Shown here piece by piece: positions 3,278 through 29,622 of a stretch of DNA of 64,000 bases. Numbering within the stretch: the stretch's first letter is position 1; every line of letters begins with the position of its first letter. The notes beneath the pieces were generated by a model. That model worked only from the letters and a program-made list of their open reading frames with translations. It did no database searches and was not told where the DNA came from. Source of the DNA: Parabacteroides merdae ATCC 43184 (GTDB lineage Bacteria; Bacteroidota; Bacteroidia; Bacteroidales; Tannerellaceae); contig NZ_CP102286.1 of assembly GCF_025151215.1 (NCBI RefSeq), positions 2,976,001 through 3,040,000 on the forward strand, read 5' to 3'. The position numbers and the translations under genes were made by a program.

Positions 3278-3401
3278 ACATATAGAATCAAATCGCCGAT
3301 AAAGATATACATAAATCCGGCTTGTCCACCTTTCTTGTAGGATTTTCCAGCATTTATCCGTTAAATAGGAACAAAGACAAACATAAATCATATTTTTTCT
3401 C

Positions 3402-3409
3402 TAAGTTTG
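3402..3409 (+). promoter_or_regulatory. Bacteroidales -7 promoter element (TAAGTTTG)
   Basis: TAAGTTTG fits the TAnnTTTG -7 consensus of the primary Bacteroidetes sigma factor and lies about 22 bases before ATG 3431. Transcription would begin near 3415, which rules out the in-frame upstream start at 3407. No convincing -33 TTTG is present. Confidence 0.5.
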
Positions 3410-3430
3410 CATTCAAATACGAGAAATCCA

Positions 3431-3640
3431 ATGAAGAAAGTAAACATAACAACTGCTGTTCTATTGATTTACCTGATCGTTATGAGCATAATCGGTTGGC
3501 CTGGCAAACAAGCCAATCCTGATTATGTACAGTATTTCGGGGTAATCGCGGCGACTGTTCTTGTTATCGGCCTATTGCGTTTCCTGCAGATCAAACGACT
3601 GAAGATTCGGGACAAGATGAAAGACGGAAAAAAGGAATAA
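3431..3640 (+). CDS. Small membrane protein of unknown function, two predicted membrane helices
   Basis: A 69-residue protein starting MKKVNITTAVLL. It has two hydrophobic segments, roughly residues 7-24 (TAVLLIYLIVMSIIGW) and 35-52 (YFGVIAATVLVIGLLRFL), and a strongly basic C-terminal tail (QIKRLKIRDKMKDGKK). I do not recognise a named family. The gene lies 33 bases ahead of the GH92 mannosidase on the same strand and is likely cotranscribed. A TAnnTTTG element just upstream and plausible codon use argue that it is real. Proteins of this size and topology are common beside glycosidase genes in Bacteroidales, but I assign no function. Confidence 0.7.
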   Translation: MKKVNITTAVLLIYLIVMSIIGWPGKQANPDYVQYFGVIAATVLVIGLLRFLQIKRLKIRDKMKDGKKE

Positions 3641-17070: not shown

Positions 17071-18351
17071 ATGATGCCATCCTGCCTGTCTATCCTGTTT
17101 CGCGCTCTCCGGATCGAGTGGAGAGAGACTAAGCGCACGTTATTTCCGACGACCCCGATAGAAACCGGGCTTTTCCTTTTCTTCTTCCTTCTTTACGGGT
17201 GTATCGGTTACCGGATGCTCTTTCATACGGAACTGATCGATGTACCCAACGGGGGAGCGGGAAGTTACTTGGGCTATGACAATCTATTCCATCTCCACAC
17301 GCGCGGAGGAGCATTCGACATCAGCCATCCCTTTTTCGGCATCTTCCATTTGTTGAAAACACTGTTGACAATCCTGTTGACAACCCTGTTCAAAGAGAAA
17401 ACTTCCGGTATTATTTGCCTGACACTGATGAACCTGTTGATAACCGGCGGACTGGTCCTGATCTATCGTTACCTGAAGCAGATCGTCCGGATCTCTTCCC
17501 GGCGGGCACTGTTACTGACAGGGTTCACGGGATGCTTTTTCACGACTGTTGTCTTATCATTCACCACAGAATCTTATCCGTTCTCCTTTTTCCTGCTCGT
17601 CTTCTCACTACTAATGCTTTCCAGGGAATACATGCTGACCGGATATATAAAAGGCCGGACGATCCTCTTTCTCTCTTTCCTGTGTGGAGGAATAACAATC
17701 ACCAACGCTGCCAAACCGGCAATGGCCCTGTTCCTGAATAAAACTCCGTTCTGGCATAAAATACGGACGGGGGTCAAAATCATGCTGCCATTTGTCATTT
17801 GCGTAGCTGTCATCATGGGCTTTTACACCCTCAAAGCGAAACTGTTCAACCCGGAAGGCCCGTCTCCTATCGAAACGACCGGGCAACTCGGACAGTATTT
17901 TATCCACGACGAGACATTCGGTAAACAAGCACTGGTCGATTTCTGGGGCAATACGATTATAAGCACGCCTCTCACACAACAGTTAGTCGGGAAAGAGGTC
18001 GTATTGCGTCCCAGCGAATACCTGCACAGTTGGAACAATGCCGTAATCATGTTTCTGTTGTTTTTAGTCGCGGCCTCGGCTTTGCTCAATCTGAAAAACA
18101 AATATGTACAACTGCTACTTATGTACCTGAGTATCGATTTCGTGATCCACTTTATCATCCGCTACGGGATGAACGAGGCGATCCTGTTCGGTGGGCATTG
18201 GATGTTTGCAATCCCGATCCTGCTGGGCTGGCTATACACACGATTGCCGGTCCGCATGTACCGGATACTGGACTGGGTTATTATCGGATTCTTTGTCCTG
18301 ACTGCAACGATAAACACGATGGAGTTTATGCGTTCCTTCTTATTCGCCTAA
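17071..18351 (+). CDS. Polytopic membrane protein, possible GT-C-like glycosyltransferase (DUF6080-like)
   Basis: A 426-residue integral membrane protein with about ten hydrophobic helices and a large first loop containing GYDNLFHLHTRGGAFDISHPFF. This loop, with an Asp-rich or His-rich patch after helix 1, and the overall architecture recall GT-C glycosyltransferases, which take sugars from polyprenyl-phosphate donors. I also recall a Bacteroidales family named DUF6080 of this size, but I cannot confirm membership. Its place after a lipid-linked phosphoribose-type synthase and phosphatase suggests it uses the resulting lipid pentose. It is convergent with porU and overlaps its 3' end by 12 bases. 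Confidence 0.75.
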   Translation: MMPSCLSILFRALRIEWRETKRTLFPTTPIETGLFLFFFLLYGCIGYRMLFHTELIDVPNGGAGSYLGYDNLFHLHTRGGAFDISHPFFGIFHLLKTLLTILLTTLFKEKTSGIICLTLMNLLITGGLVLIYRYLKQIVRISSRRALLLTGFTGCFFTTVVLSFTTESYPFSFFLLVFSLLMLSREYMLTGYIKGRTILFLSFLCGGITITNAAKPAMALFLNKTPFWHKIRTGVKIMLPFVICVAVIMGFYTLKAKLFNPEGPSPIETTGQLGQYFIHDETFGKQALVDFWGNTIISTPLTQQLVGKEVVLRPSEYLHSWNNAVIMFLLFLVAASALLNLKNKYVQLLLMYLSIDFVIHFIIRYGMNEAILFGGHWMFAIPILLGWLYTRLPVRMYRILDWVIIGFFVLTATINTMEFMRSFLFA

Positions 18352-21300
18352 AATGATGAATTTCCTTGCTTTTGTCGCGTCTTTGGAATTATCGGTACTG
18401 ATAGCTGCCCGGTAGATATAAACACCGGGACGCATACGGGCACCACCGGATGTCAGATCCCAGGAAACCGTATAGTTTTCGAACAGACCGGACGTTCCGC
18501 TTTCTTCATGTTTCCAAAGTTGTCGGCCTGCCAGATCGTAGACCATAATACCCACTCGCATCCGACTTTCGGGACGGTTGTGCATAAGATGGAAAGTCAC
18601 TTGCTCACGGGCGATACCCGGTGTTGCGATCACATCGAACAGGAAGGGTTTCAGTCCCTCGACCACTTCAAAAGTAAATGTCCGCACGGTCGAGTTATTC
18701 AAGATATCCCACACCCAGAACTCCGCCGTATGTTTACCCGGCTCAAGCGCCGGGATCGGGAACTTCACGATACCGGTCCCATCTTCGCCAGGTAACAGTT
18801 CGTAATAACTGTTCAGGTTATAGCTCAGGACGGTCGATTCGTCTATTACCAGCATCATATCATGCCCGACACTGCTTCCCGTGATATTCACTCCGCTCTT
18901 ATCCCATAACTCAGCGACAAAATAGGGAGTCGTGTTCACCTGGCCGCCATCTACAAATGTCGTATCATTCAGGTAAAGGGCACGGATTTCCGGACCGATC
19001 GTATCGGTTTCCGCCGTGTCGGAAGTTCCTCCGACAATGAAATTGTCGAAATTACCCTGTGCCTCATTGCCACTTTCCGTATCGACGGCATAGAGATTCA
19101 TTTTCCCCTGCAAATTAGAATAGGAAATATCCTTCGGAACCGTAAAAGTAAAGCTGAACTTTCCGTTGCGCACGGAGTCATTCCCTATAAAAATCGTATT
19201 CGGATAGTCGGTGAAGGTGAAAGCCGGACTGTCATCTTTATTGCTGTTCTTCAAGCAGGTGACAGTCACCTTGCTGTCTTTTACCGTCGGGTTGACTATA
19301 CCAGTAAAATCAGTTACCAACTGCCCGGAAGCATCCAACACCTCTCCTTCGACAGTGATCTTTTCCAAAGCTTTAAAAGATATTGAATTTCCGTCTACCG
19401 ATTGCCCGTTTACAGTCGTCACTTTCATTCCAAATTCTGGATAAGCTATTTTTACAGCTGGGTCTCCGATCAAGCAGAAACCAAGTTTGTAAACGGACGA
19501 CAAGGTGTTTTTCGTTGCTTGCATCACTTCTCCCAGCGTACGACGACGCCCATTATTTCTTTCAAACAAATTACGGATAACATTGTCGTTGATCGGGAAA
19601 TTAGGTCTGGAATAAGCGACACGAACAGTCGTAAACAGCGCAATGCCTCCACTGCTTTTATTCAGAAAGACATCTTCTCCGGCAGACGTATTCAAGTCAT
19701 CGAATCGCGTAAAATCGCAGGTAGCCGTCACCCATACCGGCAGATGAGTATAAGTAAACTGGTTGATATCTGTTTGTGTTAACACTTTCTCATCGCTTAA
19801 AGCCGTTGTCCCTCCATGTCCGGTATAATTAAACAATAGAAGTCCGTCTTTTAGAAGTTTTTGCAAGCCACTCCTTACATCCGGATAAGTTCCTGCCGTC
19901 ATGTCTTTTTTATAGGCATCATAATACAGCTTATTCACCAAAAACTCAGGATGTTCACTTTCGACATAACCTGCCAACTGATCAGCAAACTCCATATGCT
20001 CAGTCATAAATCCATCCGTATTGCTACCATCATCAGCCATAAAACACAGATTGTTTTTCCACGAACCTATATTTCTATTTTCCATATAAGAGATTACCTT
20101 ATCCACCATCTGAGTCGCCTGCTCCACAGTCCTGATAGGAAAGCGTCCGATCCCCAGACATAGTTTTTTATTTTGAAGGGATTTCTTATTATCCGCATCA
20201 TCCAGAAATCCGAAATAGTCATCAATCACATACGATTGACTACTTAATGAATTTTCCGTCTGATACGTCAATAACATATTGCTCATATCCACCGATTTCC
20301 AGGCGGAAGTCAATTTACGGTTGTCGAACGAGCCATCGCCGAACAGCAGTAAATATTTAGGAGCATCAGCTTCCGAAGTCTGCCGGTCGTAGAACATCTT
20401 CATAAAACGGCGATAAGCAGTTGCATCCGGTGTACCGCTGGAAAACTCGTTATAAATTGATTCTGGCGTCACCACCCGGACCGTCAGGTTATCCTTTGTC
20501 CGATGCGCTTCCGCCAAACGTTCTGCCTGCGTGGTAAAATTAGGCTGGGCAATAATGATCATATCTTGCTGTGGCAAAGCATGCAGATTCTGATTCACCA
20601 CCTCGCCGACCGTCACGGGAGCTTTTATCTGTGAAGGTTTTACTACGACAAACTCCCTCAAGGAAGCGGAAGCAGGAATTGAAAAAGACAACTCTGTCCC
20701 GTTCAGAGACGTTTCCATCTGTTGCGGATTTACACCGTCGGTCACATCAAAAACCAGCGTACTGGCATCGGCTCCCTGAATCACAAAACGGGAAGCATTG
20801 CCTCTTGCCGAGAGGCTGCGGAAGAATGTATAATTGTCATATACTTTCAATTGCCTCTTCATCTGCAGACGGAAATAGTTCAAGTGCACATTCTTATGTC
20901 CGGTCGTACTGTATCCGATGTTGACCTTTACAGTCTCACCTTTATCAGCCGTCCAAGCTCTTTCGCGATACAGTTCCCGTGCCACTTCGTATTCGTCCGA
21001 CGGGACAGACACGGAACCGGATATTAAAGCGTTTCCATCGACATTCATAGTAATCGTTCCGTTGCCACGGGAGATAAAAGACAGAGTGGCTTTTCCCTCG
21101 TCGTTCGTAATACCCGGAACCGATATCGTGAAATCACGGGATAAAGTAGAAGTAAACGATTCCCCATACAGTTCGCGCCCGGAACTGTTCACCGATACCA
21201 ACTCTTCTTCGTGCAAAACATAGTCATCGAAAGTTGTCACTTGCAAAGTGGCTCCAGCAGCAGATGCAGCCTTCTCCATCGTACGCCCGGCTGTTTCTTT

Positions 21301-21705
21301 CTCGGTCACGAAATAATATCCGTAATTGGAATAGGGGTTGTTGGTGTGGATAAAGGACTTATCAGAAGAAGAATATTCCCATTTGCGCGGCCCTTTCCCA
21401 TAAAACAACAAATAATCCGCACTCCTCCATACGGCTACCTCAGGGACATCATCAATATAGGTAGTAGAGAAATCTTCATCCAAAGGCCATCCTCCGTAGC
21501 CATAAACAGCTACTTTATCCAAATTGGAAAAGCCCATCTTTTTCAGATCGGCAGCCGTCAGTTTGTAAATACCATCTTCCGCCACCTGTATCTTCACCCA
21601 TTTCCCGGAGTTCAATACCGACTCGGAGGCATATCGGCTACTATCCGCCCAAGCAGAAGTGAGCAGACCGAATACAAACAGCAAGACACATAAGATTCTC
21701 TTCAT
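18340..21705 (-). CDS. porU: Type IX secretion sortase PorU (peptidase C25 family)
   Basis: Surface sortase that removes the C-terminal signal of T9SS cargo and attaches the protein to an anionic lipopolysaccharide. The 1121-residue protein has a signal peptide (VLLFVFGLLTSAWAD), long beta-rich N-terminal domains, and the gingipain-like catalytic domain with H630 (NYTGHGGTT) and C663 (ATCDFTRF). The 33-residue His-Cys spacing equals that of Porphyromonas PorU. A gingipain-type immunoglobulin-like region and a C-terminal type A-like sorting fold (VYDLAGRQLW, RPGVYIYRA) follow. It is last in a tight minus-strand run rex, FAH hydrolase, porU. Confidence 0.94.
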   Translation of the reverse strand: MKRILCVLLFVFGLLTSAWADSSRYASESVLNSGKWVKIQVAEDGIYKLTAADLKKMGFSNLDKVAVYGYGGWPLDEDFSTTYIDDVPEVAVWRSADYLLFYGKGPRKWEYSSSDKSFIHTNNPYSNYGYYFVTEKETAGRTMEKAASAAGATLQVTTFDDYVLHEEELVSVNSSGRELYGESFTSTLSRDFTISVPGITNDEGKATLSFISRGNGTITMNVDGNALISGSVSVPSDEYEVARELYRERAWTADKGETVKVNIGYSTTGHKNVHLNYFRLQMKRQLKVYDNYTFFRSLSARGNASRFVIQGADASTLVFDVTDGVNPQQMETSLNGTELSFSIPASASLREFVVVKPSQIKAPVTVGEVVNQNLHALPQQDMIIIAQPNFTTQAERLAEAHRTKDNLTVRVVTPESIYNEFSSGTPDATAYRRFMKMFYDRQTSEADAPKYLLLFGDGSFDNRKLTSAWKSVDMSNMLLTYQTENSLSSQSYVIDDYFGFLDDADNKKSLQNKKLCLGIGRFPIRTVEQATQMVDKVISYMENRNIGSWKNNLCFMADDGSNTDGFMTEHMEFADQLAGYVESEHPEFLVNKLYYDAYKKDMTAGTYPDVRSGLQKLLKDGLLLFNYTGHGGTTALSDEKVLTQTDINQFTYTHLPVWVTATCDFTRFDDLNTSAGEDVFLNKSSGGIALFTTVRVAYSRPNFPINDNVIRNLFERNNGRRRTLGEVMQATKNTLSSVYKLGFCLIGDPAVKIAYPEFGMKVTTVNGQSVDGNSISFKALEKITVEGEVLDASGQLVTDFTGIVNPTVKDSKVTVTCLKNSNKDDSPAFTFTDYPNTIFIGNDSVRNGKFSFTFTVPKDISYSNLQGKMNLYAVDTESGNEAQGNFDNFIVGGTSDTAETDTIGPEIRALYLNDTTFVDGGQVNTTPYFVAELWDKSGVNITGSSVGHDMMLVIDESTVLSYNLNSYYELLPGEDGTGIVKFPIPALEPGKHTAEFWVWDILNNSTVRTFTFEVVEGLKPFLFDVIATPGIAREQVTFHLMHNRPESRMRVGIMVYDLAGRQLWKHEESGTSGLFENYTVSWDLTSGGARMRPGVYIYRAAISTDNSKDATKARKFIILGE

Positions 21706-24089: not shown

Positions 24090-27000
24090 TTACTTAACGA
24101 TAGCCTTAACAGCTTCTTCGCCTTCAACAGCTACTACAACTACACCCTGAGGAGCAGCAATTACAGCATTGTCAGAAGTGATAACTGTGTTAGCTACTGT
24201 CTGGCCAAGGATGTTAGAAACAACAACCTTCTTACCGGCAGCATTAGCAACACGTACAGCACCCTGCTGAGCGATTACAGTTACTTCTGATGTTGCAATT
24301 TCTTCGTTGTCTGTTGCCAATTGATCATCTTCTTTGTTTTCAACGTTGAAGATCAGGGCACCGTCACCACCAGTCTTAGCGTTAGAGAAATAAGAAGGAT
24401 TCTTAGTCAAGACAACGCAACCATTCTGGATCTTCAACCAAGAGCCGTTTTCAGGAGCAATCTTTTCACCATCATAGTTGTTTGATTCGAACAAGAATTT
24501 GTTAGCATTACCTTCTTCTTCCACATTACCGGCAGCTTCAGGATTCACATAACGGAATGACCAAGTATAATTTTTGTGGTTGACGCCAGTCAACACATTC
24601 TTAATCTTGGTTGCACCAGCAGCCACCAAAGAATCATTTACAGCTTGTAATCTTGCAAAATCGATCTTATCATTTGCCAAAGCCTTGAATTCGTCTGTCA
24701 AAACCCACAATGTATCAGCCTGTTTGATAGCTTCAACAAAACCTACGCGAACATAACCAGCAGTTACATCTGTGTACGGTTTCTTGTAACCATTAGCAGC
24801 AGCAGAATCAGCGAAGCTAACTACATATTTACCTCTTTCAAATGCAGCCTTACCCGGAATAGCATGGATACAGTGGTTAGCATCTACCAAGTTACCATTT
24901 TCATCACGGTGAGTTCCGTCTGCTTCCGTACAAGGAATTGTATCTGTACCCGCGAAATCATTATGAGCAACAGAAAGTAGATACTGAGGTTTGATATCAC
25001 CATTGTCACGGTTGATCACAGCTGTATCGATCTGGAAGGCAAGACCTGTAGCCTTGTTAGCAGTCCACATACCTACATAATTCACGTTAGCATCCATCAA
25101 ACCACCTTCGCGGTTGTTTTCATCCATCAGATATTCTTTACGAACATTTTCAAAGAATCTCAAACTGTCACGACCATCTGTTGCACTTTCACCCAAAGCC
25201 GTATTGTTGAAACGGCGATACAGAGGAGCATCGCTCTTAGCGATAGCAAATACAGAAGTTCTTGTTTCAGTCAATACCTGAGCACGCAGCAGAGCATCTT
25301 CATCGTTGTCGACAACACCAGCTTTATTCAAGCCATTGTTATTAATCAAAGCATAATAACAAGTCAGATCTTCACCCTTCGTAAATTCATTGTTTTCTTT
25401 GAAATAGAAAGAAGTTACAGCATCTGTGCTAGCCGGATTTGTCGTTGCCATGATCTGGTGTTCTTTGTTTACATAGAGCTTACGTCCGTAAGGTGCAGAA
25501 ACCGTATAAAGACGTCTTTCCAACTGAGCCAATGTCGGAATATAAGTATTAGCACCACGAGCATCTACATCATAACCGAATTCAGCAGCTTGAGCAGCTT
25601 CAATTGAGAAACGGCCAGCATCTTCAGTCAATACGTTCAAAACAGAGTCTTCAGCATTCTTGTTCAGGTATTTATCAGCTGTATAAGCATGCCAGTAGTT
25701 GAATGTATAACGATTTACATCCAGATCCTGATCTTCCAAAAATTTGTATCCATTGTGTTTGTCAGCAACAGCGTCAGCAGAAACCGGTTCAAAGACAACT
25801 TCTACACCATTCAACTTGTACTGGCCGTCTTTAGTACCTTTTCTCAACTGGATCTGATAATCGTTCTGTGCATCGAACTCACGGTTAGTTACCTGAACCG
25901 GAGAAATTTCTGCACGAAGAGCAGAATGATCTTTCTTGATAACAACCCACTGGAATGCAGGGATATGGTTAAAATTCATATTCTTGATAACATCACCTCC
26001 AGTATATTCAGCTACAGAGTCTGCATCATAAATGTGAACGCCATAATATTCACCAGTTTTCACATTTTTGATCGTGTAAACACCGTCAGCGATACTTGCA
26101 TAATCAGAATCAATACCGTCGGCGTAAGCCAAAAGATTTACGTGGTTTTCAACAGGTCTTCCAGCAAGCACATCGTCATCATAGAAAGTAACGACATTCT
26201 TAGCTTCGTCTACCAAAGTACAATGTGACAACACTGTAAACAGCTTCGTATTATTCTGAACACCTGGTTTAAAACCAGTTGCCATGCTACCAGAAATTCC
26301 ATCATCTACACGGGCATCATCATTCAACATTGTCCAATATGTCACTTCGCTTCCTTTCTGGCTTTTCGGAGCCACGGCATTTGCCAACTCAACAAACTGA
26401 GAGAAAGATTCGACTTGCAAAGAGTCTGTCAACAGGTCCTTTGTGAATTTGAAACGGAATGCATCGTCCGGCAAATTATAGCCTAATGTATCAATCACAT
26501 TATAACCATTAACCGGTGTAACCAAATTGCCTGCGGCATCTTTTTCCATGATTGCAGCCGATGTTGTCAACTGATTATACAGTTTGAAAGAAGCACCAGT
26601 ACTTTCATAATAAGACGTATCAAGACGTAAATAGTTATAAGACAATTCTCCTTCGTCATTCAATTTGTTCAAAAACAGATATTCATCTTGTGCTGGTGTA
26701 TATCCACCTTTTTTGTTACGCAGAACTTCATAAGGAGAAGAAGGAGTACCACTACTTCTCAGGACCTGGGCTTGATACTTATCGGCAAACGGATTTTTGT
26801 CGATATCCTCTGCAAAAGACAACTGCATGTACTTAACATCATCGCCCTTTGTGTTCAGGTCTTCAGCAGACATTACCCAAGAACCCGGAGTCAAGATCTG
26901 TAAAGCTGTACCTGATTGCAGTTTTTGTTTCGAATCTTTTGCTGCATAAATAACGTTAGTAGCAGCATCTACACGAATCACCAAAGTAGAGTCACCACCG

Positions 27001-27500
27001 GCAAAGTCCATAGAAACAACTTCGGAGGCTTGTAAAGAGTTAGAAACATTGTAACGGCTGTTATACCAAATCCACTGTGTCAAAGCACCACCAACTTCAG
27101 CTGCATTACCTGAAACAGCAGAAGTAGATGTACCCGTTTCTTTTACTGCATTCTTCGGATCAAAAGAAAAAGTAGCACCTGTTGCCTTGTTTGTCATAAC
27201 AAAACGAGTAGCACCACCATCACCTGTCACATTAGCAGAAACCGTCCACAAAGCGGAATCAACTTTTGCCAAAGAATTCAATGAGTTTGCTGCAACCGAT
27301 TTAAAAGCGAGAGTTCCATCGGCAGTTTCTGTAACGCTTACAACATTAGTTGCCCCACTTCCTACGCCTAAAGCATAATACTTGGCCTGACGAATTTCAG
27401 GTTCACTAGAAAAAACCTGAGGATTAAACGTCTGCGCAGAAGCTCCGACACCAGAAGCCAGCAGAACACCGGCTACAAGAGTAGAAAACTTTTTGTTCAT
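24090..27500 (-). CDS. Large secreted surface protein with DUF6383/T9SS-like C-terminal domain; S-layer-like candidate
   Basis: An 1136-residue protein with a cleavable signal peptide (MNKKFSTLVAGVLLASGVGASAQ). The body shows no enzymatic motif. The last 70 residues (VTVIAQQGAVRVANAAGKK, VVSNILGQTVANTVI, VVVVAVEGEEAVKAIVK) have the layout of a T9SS type A sorting domain and match what I know as DUF6383 of Parabacteroides. I count 13 matches to the Bacteroidetes O-glycosylation motif D(S/T)(A/I/L/V/M/T), such as VDSAL, IDTLG, TDSLQ, ADSVA and NDSLV, so it should be heavily glycosylated. Phase-variable S-layer-like glycoproteins are known in P. distasonis. Its upstream region (27576-27798) looks like an invertible promoter set to OFF. 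PorU/PorV nearby would export it. Confidence 0.85.
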   Translation of the reverse strand: MNKKFSTLVAGVLLASGVGASAQTFNPQVFSSEPEIRQAKYYALGVGSGATNVVSVTETADGTLAFKSVAANSLNSLAKVDSALWTVSANVTGDGGATRFVMTNKATGATFSFDPKNAVKETGTSTSAVSGNAAEVGGALTQWIWYNSRYNVSNSLQASEVVSMDFAGGDSTLVIRVDAATNVIYAAKDSKQKLQSGTALQILTPGSWVMSAEDLNTKGDDVKYMQLSFAEDIDKNPFADKYQAQVLRSSGTPSSPYEVLRNKKGGYTPAQDEYLFLNKLNDEGELSYNYLRLDTSYYESTGASFKLYNQLTTSAAIMEKDAAGNLVTPVNGYNVIDTLGYNLPDDAFRFKFTKDLLTDSLQVESFSQFVELANAVAPKSQKGSEVTYWTMLNDDARVDDGISGSMATGFKPGVQNNTKLFTVLSHCTLVDEAKNVVTFYDDDVLAGRPVENHVNLLAYADGIDSDYASIADGVYTIKNVKTGEYYGVHIYDADSVAEYTGGDVIKNMNFNHIPAFQWVVIKKDHSALRAEISPVQVTNREFDAQNDYQIQLRKGTKDGQYKLNGVEVVFEPVSADAVADKHNGYKFLEDQDLDVNRYTFNYWHAYTADKYLNKNAEDSVLNVLTEDAGRFSIEAAQAAEFGYDVDARGANTYIPTLAQLERRLYTVSAPYGRKLYVNKEHQIMATTNPASTDAVTSFYFKENNEFTKGEDLTCYYALINNNGLNKAGVVDNDEDALLRAQVLTETRTSVFAIAKSDAPLYRRFNNTALGESATDGRDSLRFFENVRKEYLMDENNREGGLMDANVNYVGMWTANKATGLAFQIDTAVINRDNGDIKPQYLLSVAHNDFAGTDTIPCTEADGTHRDENGNLVDANHCIHAIPGKAAFERGKYVVSFADSAAANGYKKPYTDVTAGYVRVGFVEAIKQADTLWVLTDEFKALANDKIDFARLQAVNDSLVAAGATKIKNVLTGVNHKNYTWSFRYVNPEAAGNVEEEGNANKFLFESNNYDGEKIAPENGSWLKIQNGCVVLTKNPSYFSNAKTGGDGALIFNVENKEDDQLATDNEEIATSEVTVIAQQGAVRVANAAGKKVVVSNILGQTVANTVITSDNAVIAAPQGVVVVAVEGEEAVKAIVK

Positions 27501-27575
27501 AATCTAATAATTTAATTAATAATACTATATATAATGAAATTCAGTTCTATAAATCCCTCTTTGGGATCATCCTAT

Positions 27576-27615
27576 AAAATGACTAATGAAAACGTACGTT
27601 TTTTTTAGTCATTTT
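27576..27615. repeat. Palindromic repeat 1 of the putative invertible segment
   Basis: A 40-bp dyad centred at 27595/27596: AAAATGAC (27576-27583), AACGTACGTT (27591-27600), GTCATTTT (27608-27615). Confidence 0.75.
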
Positions 27616-27744
27616 GGGGGAGGGTTTAAATGGTTTGTGATAAAAAGGTGGTTTTTCGTACATGTTAAGCTATCTAATTGATAAGAAAGAATATAGAAAA
27701 AGAAAAATCTTTGAGGAAAGAATTGCAGGTTCAAAAAGTATATG

Positions 27745-27752
27745 TATTTTTG
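27745..27752 (+). promoter_or_regulatory. Promoter -7 element (TATTTTTG) inside the putative invertible segment
   Basis: TATTTTTG preceded by TTGC at 27723-27726 with an 18-base spacer. It points away from the minus-strand surface-protein gene, toward a stretch (27799-28100) where I see no gene. Confidence 0.6.
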
Positions 27753-27759
27753 TAGCTGA

Positions 27760-27798
27760 AAAATGACGAATTTAAACGTACGTTTTTTTAGTCATTTT
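27760..27798. repeat. Palindromic repeat 2 of the putative invertible segment
   Basis: A 39-bp copy: AAAATGAC (27760-27767), AACGTACGTT (27775-27784), GTCATTTT (27791-27798). The outer arms and core equal those of repeat 1; the left linker differs. Confidence 0.75.
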
Positions 27799-28102
27799 AT
27801 TTTAGGGACCTATCTTGTTGATATAAAATTAATTACATCCCATTTTTTACCTATTTTTACCCTCATAAACATACGTACGCGTGTACCTTTCAAGATCACA
27901 AGTACACCTAATAATCAATATATTACGAAATTGCCAAACTTGCAAAAAAGAGTTTTCCCGCAAAAAAACAAAAAAACATCACCTACGAGACAATATACAT
28001 ATCCTCAATATACATACAATTCCTACTTTTCATACCGAGAAAGGAGATCATTCAGCATGCACAACGCAAGAAAACTTCACAGTTGACATTGTGGCAACAA
28101 AA

Positions 28103-28136
28103 AAGCCTCCGATGAAAAAGATCCACCGGAAGCTTC
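28103..28136 (-). terminator. pepD terminator
   Basis: AAGCCTCCGATG pairs imperfectly with the CACCGGAAGCTT side; on the minus strand the hairpin is followed by TTTTTTGTT. It lies about 30 bases past the pepD stop. The 27799-28100 stretch before it is AT-rich and holds no supported gene. Confidence 0.6.
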
Positions 28137-28167
28137 CTATTATATTATTATATAATGTATATACGAA

Positions 28168-29622
28168 TCAGATTCTCGCAAGCGTCGTAACAATAAAGTC
28201 CCACGTACGGGCAACAGACGGAATGCTGACACGCTCGTCAGGAGAATGCGGATGCTGCAAGTCCGGACCGATAGAGATCATGTCCATATCAGGATAGGAT
28301 TCCTGAATGATACCGCATTCCAGACCGGCATGCATAACCTTAGCCTCCGGCTTCTTTCCGTACAAATCCAAATAAGCTTGCTGCATGATTTTCAGGATCG
28401 GCGAATCGATATTCGGCTGCCATCCGCCGTAACCATCCGAATATTCCACCTTCGCCCCGGCTAGAGAGAAAATACTTTCCAAACTCGAACAAACAGCTTC
28501 CTTGCGGCTCTCGGACGAACTGCGAACCAAAATTTGAATCTCGATCATTTCGTTCGAGGACTTGACGATTGCCAAGTTTGTAGACGATTCGACCGTACCC
28601 GGAAAATCGACCAGCATACTGATCACACCGTTCTGGCAACCTTCTATCGCATTGATCAGATCATCCTGAATCTCTTCCGGAATCAGAGTTGCCGGCATAT
28701 CGGTCATTTCGGCCGTAAAATTAATATTGTGTTCAATGCCCTTATATTCGTAGCGGTACATTTCCTGATAATCGGACACAAGCTCCCAAAGAGCTTCCAC
28801 ATTATCTCCAGGAATTGTTATTACGGCAAAAGCTTCACGCGGGATAGCGTTGCGCAACGAACCGCCGTCGACAGATGACAGACGAGCCCCATAATCGCGT
28901 ACGGCCTCTTTCAAAAAACGGAACATCAGCTTATTCGCATTCGCACGTCCCAAATGAATATCCACACCGGAGTGACCGCCTTTCAAGCCGGTCAGGCTGA
29001 TTTTCACGGCAACATCGCCCTCCGGAATATAAGTATCTTCCTTAAATTGCATGGAGACATTCAGATCGGCGCCACCAGCACAACCGACAAACAACTCGCC
29101 TTCTTCCTCTGAATCACAGTTCAACAGGATTTCCCCTTTCAGGAAACCCGGCTTCAAACCGACTGCGCCATCCATTCCCACTTCTTCGTTAATGGTAAAA
29201 AGGGCTTCCAGAGGACCGTGCGTCAATGTCTTGTCCGCCAGGACAGCCATAGCAAAAGCAGCACCCATACCGTTATCAGCACCCAATGTCGTTTCGCGTG
29301 CTTTCACCCAATCTCCATCTATATAAGCATCGATCGGATCAGTTAGAAAATCATGTTTTACCGAAGAGTTCTTCTGCGGAACCATATCGAGGTGAGACTG
29401 CATGGTCACGGTTTTGTGTCCTTCCATTCCCGGAGAAGCCGGTTTACGAATCAAAACGTTTCCCACTTCGTCCTGCAAAGTTTCCAATCCCAATCCTTTA
29501 CCAAAAGCTACCATAAAACGGGTTACAGCCTCCATATGTCCGGTCGGACGAGGGATTTGCGTAAGGTCATAGAAATAACCCCAAACTGGCTGCGGAGAAA
29601 GATTTTTGATTTCTGCGGACAT
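28168..29622 (-). CDS. pepD: Aminoacyl-histidine dipeptidase (peptidase M20C)
   Basis: Zinc-dependent cytosolic dipeptidase (Xaa-His type), 484 residues. M20 metal and catalytic motifs are complete: MQSHLDMVPQ, LGADNGMGAAF, TINEEVGMDGA (catalytic Glu pair) and LNCDSEEEG, with HAGLECGIIQ near the C terminus. The middle part is the lid/dimerisation domain (VAVKISLTGLKGGHSGVDI). The N terminus MSAEIKNLSPQPVWGYFYDLTQIPRPTG is characteristic. It has its own terminator and is separated from the flippase-like gene by a repeat-rich spacer. Confidence 0.96.
   Translation of the reverse strand: MSAEIKNLSPQPVWGYFYDLTQIPRPTGHMEAVTRFMVAFGKGLGLETLQDEVGNVLIRKPASPGMEGHKTVTMQSHLDMVPQKNSSVKHDFLTDPIDAYIDGDWVKARETTLGADNGMGAAFAMAVLADKTLTHGPLEALFTINEEVGMDGAVGLKPGFLKGEILLNCDSEEEGELFVGCAGGADLNVSMQFKEDTYIPEGDVAVKISLTGLKGGHSGVDIHLGRANANKLMFRFLKEAVRDYGARLSSVDGGSLRNAIPREAFAVITIPGDNVEALWELVSDYQEMYRYEYKGIEHNINFTAEMTDMPATLIPEEIQDDLINAIEGCQNGVISMLVDFPGTVESSTNLAIVKSSNEMIEIQILVRSSSESRKEAVCSSLESIFSLAGAKVEYSDGYGGWQPNIDSPILKIMQQAYLDLYGKKPEAKVMHAGLECGIIQESYPDMDMISIGPDLQHPHSPDERVSIPSVARTWDFIVTTLARI

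Follow-up and report, generated by a model that had tools for sequence, protein, structure and literature searches.

The 184 bp between two palindromic sites upstream of a gene for a predicted surface glycoprotein, in the 64-kb stretch of DNA analysed here (the window), very probably form a phase-variation switch. Its inversion would be carried out by a serine recombinase, for which the Mpi-family protein encoded at C1:373731-374354 is the leading candidate. The features of the locus, in window coordinates, are as follows.

27576..27615, no strand: gene-proximal recombination site, 40 bp, with the core dinucleotide TA at 27595-27596
27760..27798, no strand: gene-distal recombination site, 39 bp, with the core dinucleotide TA at 27779-27780
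27596..27779, no strand: segment between the core centres, 184 bp, in the OFF orientation; putatively invertible, on the basis of reversed orthologues of two other loci
27723..27752, + strand: Bacteroides-type promoter TTGC-18-TATTTTTG (-33/-7) directed away from the gene; its -7 occupies 27745-27752
27678..27689, + strand: TTGATAAGAAAG element, which lies 67 bp before the -7 and belongs to an imperfect dyad, CTATC-N5-GATAAG (27670-27685)
24090..27500, - strand: gene of a 1136-aa DUF6383 protein, the predicted surface glycoprotein (PF19910, 107.9 bits, cut-off 23.7)

A sequence-only reading of this DNA had described two palindromic sites bounding a segment, and both were recovered with the positions and arms that it gave. 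Each site reads as a AAAATGAC arm, a AACGTACGTT core and a GTCATTTT arm. The AACGTACGTT core, at 27591-27600 and 27775-27784, occurs twice in the 64-kb window, against 0.09 occurrences expected, and a count of two was reached in none of 100 shuffles. The span that includes both whole sites is 223 bp; the exchanged part is the 184 bp between the core centres. Each site is nearly palindromic by itself, so that the two can be aligned as direct repeats (90% over 30 nt) as well as inverted repeats (85% over 27 nt). Both copies contain AAACGTACGT, which fits ARACGTWCGT, a consensus for Mpi-like sites given, with the W, in the sequence-only reading; the accessible part of PMC8375218 gives the close ARACGTTCGTN as the Mpi repeat of B. 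fragilis.

The sole Bacteroides-type promoter motif inside the segment faces away from the gene starting at 27500, as had been claimed, and at the level of motifs the segment would present a promoter to the gene in one orientation only. In the mechanism that we favour, the recombinase would pair the two sites, cut both at the central TA, rotate the ends and rejoin them with the 184 bp inverted. In the present orientation no Bacteroides-type promoter of the segment would face the gene, giving the OFF state; after inversion TTGC-18-TATTTTTG would fire toward it. The earlier account of this flipped geometry was right in its ON placement of the promoter and slightly out in its positions: with exchange taken between the two core centres, the -7 would come to lie at 27623-27630 rather than 27622-27629, a shift that comes from the unequal lengths of the sites (40 and 39 bp), and the ON leader would be about 116 nt rather than 115, given a transcription start 7 nt past the -7. 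This leader would open with the proximal site as a hairpin (-9.8 kcal/mol, z -3.0; 4 of 200 shuffles were equally stable). A promoter scan of 27400-28200 with an E. coli-type consensus gave eight weak matches, against 3.6 expected, and one weak match of this type lies between the segment and the gene (27553-27524, minus strand).

The predicted product carries its DUF6383 domain at the C-terminus, and its N-terminus, MNKKFSTLVAGVLLASGVGASAQ, resembles a signal peptide by eye. Most of its homologues have PF19910; those shown by name are DUF6383 or hypothetical proteins of Parabacteroides, and one protein of P. johnsonii shares 61% identity with the window product. By eye the C-terminus also appears to end like a sorting domain, and the Type IX secretion sortase PorU is encoded in the same window (18340-21705; NF033707, 1167 bits, cut-off 420). 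The next upstream gene on the same strand encodes an M20 peptidase (28168-29622), after which a 10-pair stem and a T run were seen by eye on the minus strand at about 28104-28136; a terminator scan of 27400-28200 listed none, the loop of this stem perhaps being longer than the scan allows.

The genome-wide searches gave no resolvase-family or tyrosine-recombinase match inside the window, in keeping with the expectation that the recombinase would be encoded elsewhere. A search of the genome for an Mpi-like recombinase and for further segments with the same site had been proposed, and it found both. The Mpi-family serine recombinase at C1:373731-374354 scores 316.6 bits against NF009949, above the NCBI curated cut-off of 272, and its gene adjoins a fucokinase/guanylyltransferase gene and polysaccharide-export genes. 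It lies far off on the same contig, 2.6 Mb from the switch along the contig and nearer the other way round if the chromosome is circular. The genome has three resolvase-family genes, the other two being Mpi paralogues that score below the cut-off (187.8 and 185.3 bits). Across Parabacteroides genomes Mpi and the sites co-occur weakly: among 38 genomes, at least four site hits were present in 14 of the 31 with Mpi above the cut-off and in none of the 7 without it (Fisher p 0.027). Seventeen genomes have Mpi above the cut-off yet few site hits, perhaps in part because the pattern misses variant sites, as in P. gordonii.

The sites themselves carry information on the type of enzyme. Of the 74 loci scanned, 59 had a pair; two rows (L092 4384 and L109 3964, both unmatched) were dropped, each sharing a site with a proper pair. 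In all 59 accepted pairs, from nine genomes, the central two bases were mutually reverse-complementary (AT/AT in 29, TA/TA in 23, TT/AA or AA/TT in 7). Shuffling all 61 rows within genomes left 39.3 matched on average and 52 at most, against the 59 observed. A stricter scan gave 40 matched pairs out of 40 (shuffle mean 23.5, maximum 35 in 10,000), and it also found matched pairs in L149 (AA/TT) and L151 (AT/AT), which stand outside the 59 and 74 totals. These other loci were found with a pattern that admits only A or T in the first site's core; in 15 further pairs from P. gordonii the sites were picked by bases outside the core, and there too every pair was matched (11 TT/AA, 2 GT/AC, 2 AT/AT), which brings the accepted pairs with matched cores to 74 of 74. 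All 20 polar-core pairs stand as inverted repeats. A one-base difference between the paired sites, beside the core region, was seen at L091 and L097. Six of the 15 pairless loci were read by eye, with the result that L111 and L112 were called OFF, L047 and L118 site-less and L088 a single site, L120 not being called; the other nine pairless loci are L129-L132, L145, L146 and L149-L151.

A serine recombinase with a two-base crossover requires matching core dinucleotides, and a two-base matched stretch in palindromic sites is the general pattern of serine invertases. The matched cores are thus what a serine invertase would need, and they make both the enzyme type and the pairing of loci testable. 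The TA core of the window is not polar, and the core alone would therefore not prevent deletion. This pattern also bears on the idea that the switch is real and is worked by another recombinase, either an Mpi paralogue or a tyrosine recombinase, which we consider unlikely. Candidates are at hand, since besides the two paralogues the genome has 23 PF00589 matches (21 above the cut-off), and the accessible text of PMC8400631 connects tyrosine-type recombinase genes with capsule loci of P. distasonis. However, no tyrosine-recombinase (Tsr) gene stands beside the switch, the nearest PF00589 match (C1:2962626-2963141) being about 40 kb away. An adjacent recombinase gene is common in Tsr promoter switches, if not universal. 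The window site moreover resembles the B. fragilis Mpi repeat, and three genomes (G006, G020 and G025) combine 10, 17 and 15 site hits, respectively, with a single Mpi-family match each, above the cut-off; as these genomes are 81-90% complete, a paralogue could have been missed in them.

Inversion by Mpi would involve a family of loci in this genome. The longer site pattern matched 21 times at no more than 3 mismatches in the 4,377,447-base contig, and the reversed control gave no match. There are 13 DUF6383 matches above the cut-off, 10 of them strong, and a TTG...TATTTTTG cassette lies upstream of nine of these ten, the gene starting at 2644336 having none. Of the ten genomic matches to the promoter cassette pattern, nine are at strong DUF6383 genes and the tenth (3 mismatches, at 802912) is elsewhere. 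A site pair is present at eight of the nine DUF6383 cassettes, with 184-186 bp between the cores; seven of these switches, the window locus included, are OFF and one (2845302) is ON. The ninth cassette, L047 (gene start 2955724), has its promoter facing the gene and no site pair, and the ninth site pair of the genome (L049) precedes a polysaccharide-synthesis gene (PF02719) by 665 bp. The claim of an invertible promoter in its OFF state is supported by the seven further DUF6383 cassettes with site pairs, together with two sibling-type switches found reversed. With eight switches and one site-less copy, cells would vary in which DUF6383 surface proteins they make. We infer Mpi as the enzyme, the expression states and the trans-acting factor considered below.

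Several other arrangements were seen in the course of this survey. Site-less DUF6383 genes with the promoter facing the gene occur at L047 (G000), L118 (G012) and L167 (G009), and by eye core-like remnants (CGTACG, ACGATCGT) follow the -7 in all three, which look as if switches had been locked ON. One complete site with neither a partner nor a DUF6383 gene (L088 5508; G000 C1:3345493-3345522) has a right flank that by eye resembles the distal flank of the switch loci, and is possibly a deletion remnant. A PAS histidine kinase gene of G012 is preceded, at a distance of about 350 bp, by a site pair that has TT/AA cores (L089, C1:1116056), and this sensor kinase may be under the same inversion system. 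Eight contigs of G001 (C67, C73, C74, C78, C80, C102, C105 and C118) have ends no more than about 60 bases from sites, a pattern that assembly breaks caused by mixed orientations or repeated cassettes would be expected to leave. A 265-aa gene in L106 that had been read as UpxY-like was rejected as such, being a DUF6261 gene.

Inversion was examined by comparing orthologues across species, with one whole genome assembly per species. At L043, a DUF6383 locus of this genome that is ON, the flanks have the same orientation as those of L093 in G012, which is OFF, and are 78-95% identical to them, whereas the segment (3401-3603) aligns in reverse at 86.8%, ending approximately at the outer edges of the sites. 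The same was found at a locus of other species, L140 (G037, ON) against L114 (G013, OFF), where both flanks align on the minus strand (96.8 and 96.4%) and the segment on the plus strand (94.6%). The window locus is OFF both in its own genome and in G012 (L098), the same orientation in two species, and it is on the strength of the two reversed loci that its own segment is taken to be invertible. The cassette of the window locus matches that of L098 at 95.7%, the match stopping at the distal site, and the DUF6383 protein of L098 differs from the window protein over most of its length. At L048 and L098 the same switch and leader stand before largely different DUF6383 coding sequences in two species; exchange between loci is a possible origin of this pattern. 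Exact searches of viral contigs gave no match to the predicted ON junction and likewise none to the present OFF junction.

The shared orientation of the window locus in the two species is what would be seen if the segment were a fossil, formerly inverting and now locked OFF, and the related loci L047, L118 and L167 have indeed lost their sites. We nevertheless think this very unlikely, as the window sites have each retained the two TGAC arms and have identical cores, and L043 is reversed relative to its G012 orthologue with only one full TGAC arm per site. It is barely credible that the palindromes are operators for a DNA-binding regulator within an ordinary promoter region, for although the sites are strong palindromes and the internal dyad element suggests that regulators may bind nearby, operators are expected to give neither reversed orthologues with breakpoints at the sites nor matched cores in 74 of 74 accepted pairs, and similar sites stand at the ends of segments close to genes for polysaccharide synthesis and for a histidine kinase as well.

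If the segments are Mpi-inverted switches, they were mostly caught in one state. Among 43 DUF6383-type switches (one duplicate row dropped), 40 were OFF and 3 ON, and 15 more loci from P. gordonii, all OFF, bring this to 55 of 58 OFF in assemblies. The DUF6383 call in the switch scan was made by the tail or an MNK-type start rather than by profile (for L134 by the start only), and a second switch in L110, also OFF, lies outside the count. For P. gordonii, 25 of the 38 DUF6383 matches were examined; among 20 genes examined there, L167 alone has a promoter facing the gene and no sites. The OFF majority is a bias and not a rate, because an assembly records the majority state of one culture per species. 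The large-capsule promoter of B. fragilis is similarly described as OFF in three genome sequences (PMC3090145) and as mostly OFF in culture (PMC4747536), in the accessible parts of these papers. A strong OFF bias beside a site-less copy that faces its gene suggests a baseline coat with rare variants.

The cassettes of the DUF6383 genes also share an element outside the sites. An alignment of 16 of them, from G000 and G012, showed a near-invariant block, GCTATCTnATTGATAAGAAAG, upstream of the promoter. Either TTGATAAGAAAG (40 cassettes) or its first 11 bases (2 cassettes) was present on the promoter strand 66-68 bp before the -7 in 42 of 43 DUF6383 cassettes, L126 being the one without a match; the 16 switches that belong to other genes all lack it, L099 having a 9-base partial match at a different spacing. 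In this genome a 26-base pattern matched nine times, at the eight DUF6383 switches and at the site-less DUF6383 copy, and never in the control. A P. distasonis record contains the element too, as does the site-less copy of G012. By pattern it was missed at four of the 20 P. gordonii genes examined, one of which (L173) has by eye the variant GGATAAGAAAG, together with a stretch that resembles a promoter directed at the gene. Since the element is kept where recombination sites are missing and is absent from the other switches, it probably serves transcription; for the same reasons, a role as a recombinational enhancer was rejected.

We tentatively put forward, as a possible scheme, that two controls are superposed at these loci, inversion by Mpi and a trans-acting factor dedicated to the DUF6383 family. 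Such a factor would serve this family only, by binding the CTATC-N5-GATAAG dyad that precedes the -7 by 66-68 bp; the eligibility of individual genes would be set by flipping, and expression of the family as a whole by the factor. The two-base cores would be partial addresses, preventing recombination between loci whose cores differ. The TTGATAAGAAAG element is in any case a concrete target for finding a regulator of the whole surface-protein set, which may bear on phage resistance and host contact. A literature search with the letters of TTGATAAGAAAG returned only papers unrelated by title, and among the titles on the switch system, in a search that most subscription papers lay outside, none described the element. 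Two details of the wiring look new; of the upstream element, the matched cores and the OFF bias, some may already be known.

The closest relatives of the window switch are found in other Bacteroidales systems of surface variation. Fletcher et al., in PNAS in 2007, reportedly described a phase-variable S-layer glycoprotein of Parabacteroides distasonis. The P. distasonis record resembles the window in having an annotated DUF6383 gene, inverted sites (AA/TT cores) and a promoter facing away, as read by eye, and its Mpi-family-annotated protein is 71% identical to the one here. It comes from a different species (gpmI is 75% identical), and its site arms differ, CGACTAGTTTAAACGAA against ATGACTAATGAAAACGTA; the pattern ACGNNCGTTT had no match on the record, and it was reading of the sequence that showed the variant site pair. 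P. distasonis also has capsule switches in which, according to the accessible text of PMC12118408, inverted repeats with internal palindromes surround a putative promoter, as here; with their GCTACTYRGNRAGTAGC repeat, segments of 314-345 bp and an integrase gene in front, these are another system.

In B. fragilis the promoter switches of the Mpi regulon are scattered and are served by one serine recombinase (PMC5903667, accessible part), the regulon comprising at least 13 regions, seven polysaccharide loci included. Here, in contrast, eight of the nine identified pairs are in front of DUF6383 genes, the remaining pair being at a polysaccharide locus, and the window core is TA. In B. intestinalis, the accessible part of PMC8375218 describes PVR7-12 as putative invertible capsule promoters of 183-186 bp, with transcription starting inside the proximal repeat. 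They are like the switches here in segment length, in a shared repeat and in the presence of at least two Mpi homologues; they differ in preceding capsule operons, in the repeat GTTCGTTTAA and in that switching was studied there with long reads, as opposed to assemblies only here. The window switch thus belongs with the known Mpi-type invertible promoters and with the phase-variable S-layer glycoproteins of P. distasonis, and with it a surface-switching system already known is found in a further Parabacteroides species, with a site rule that can be searched for.
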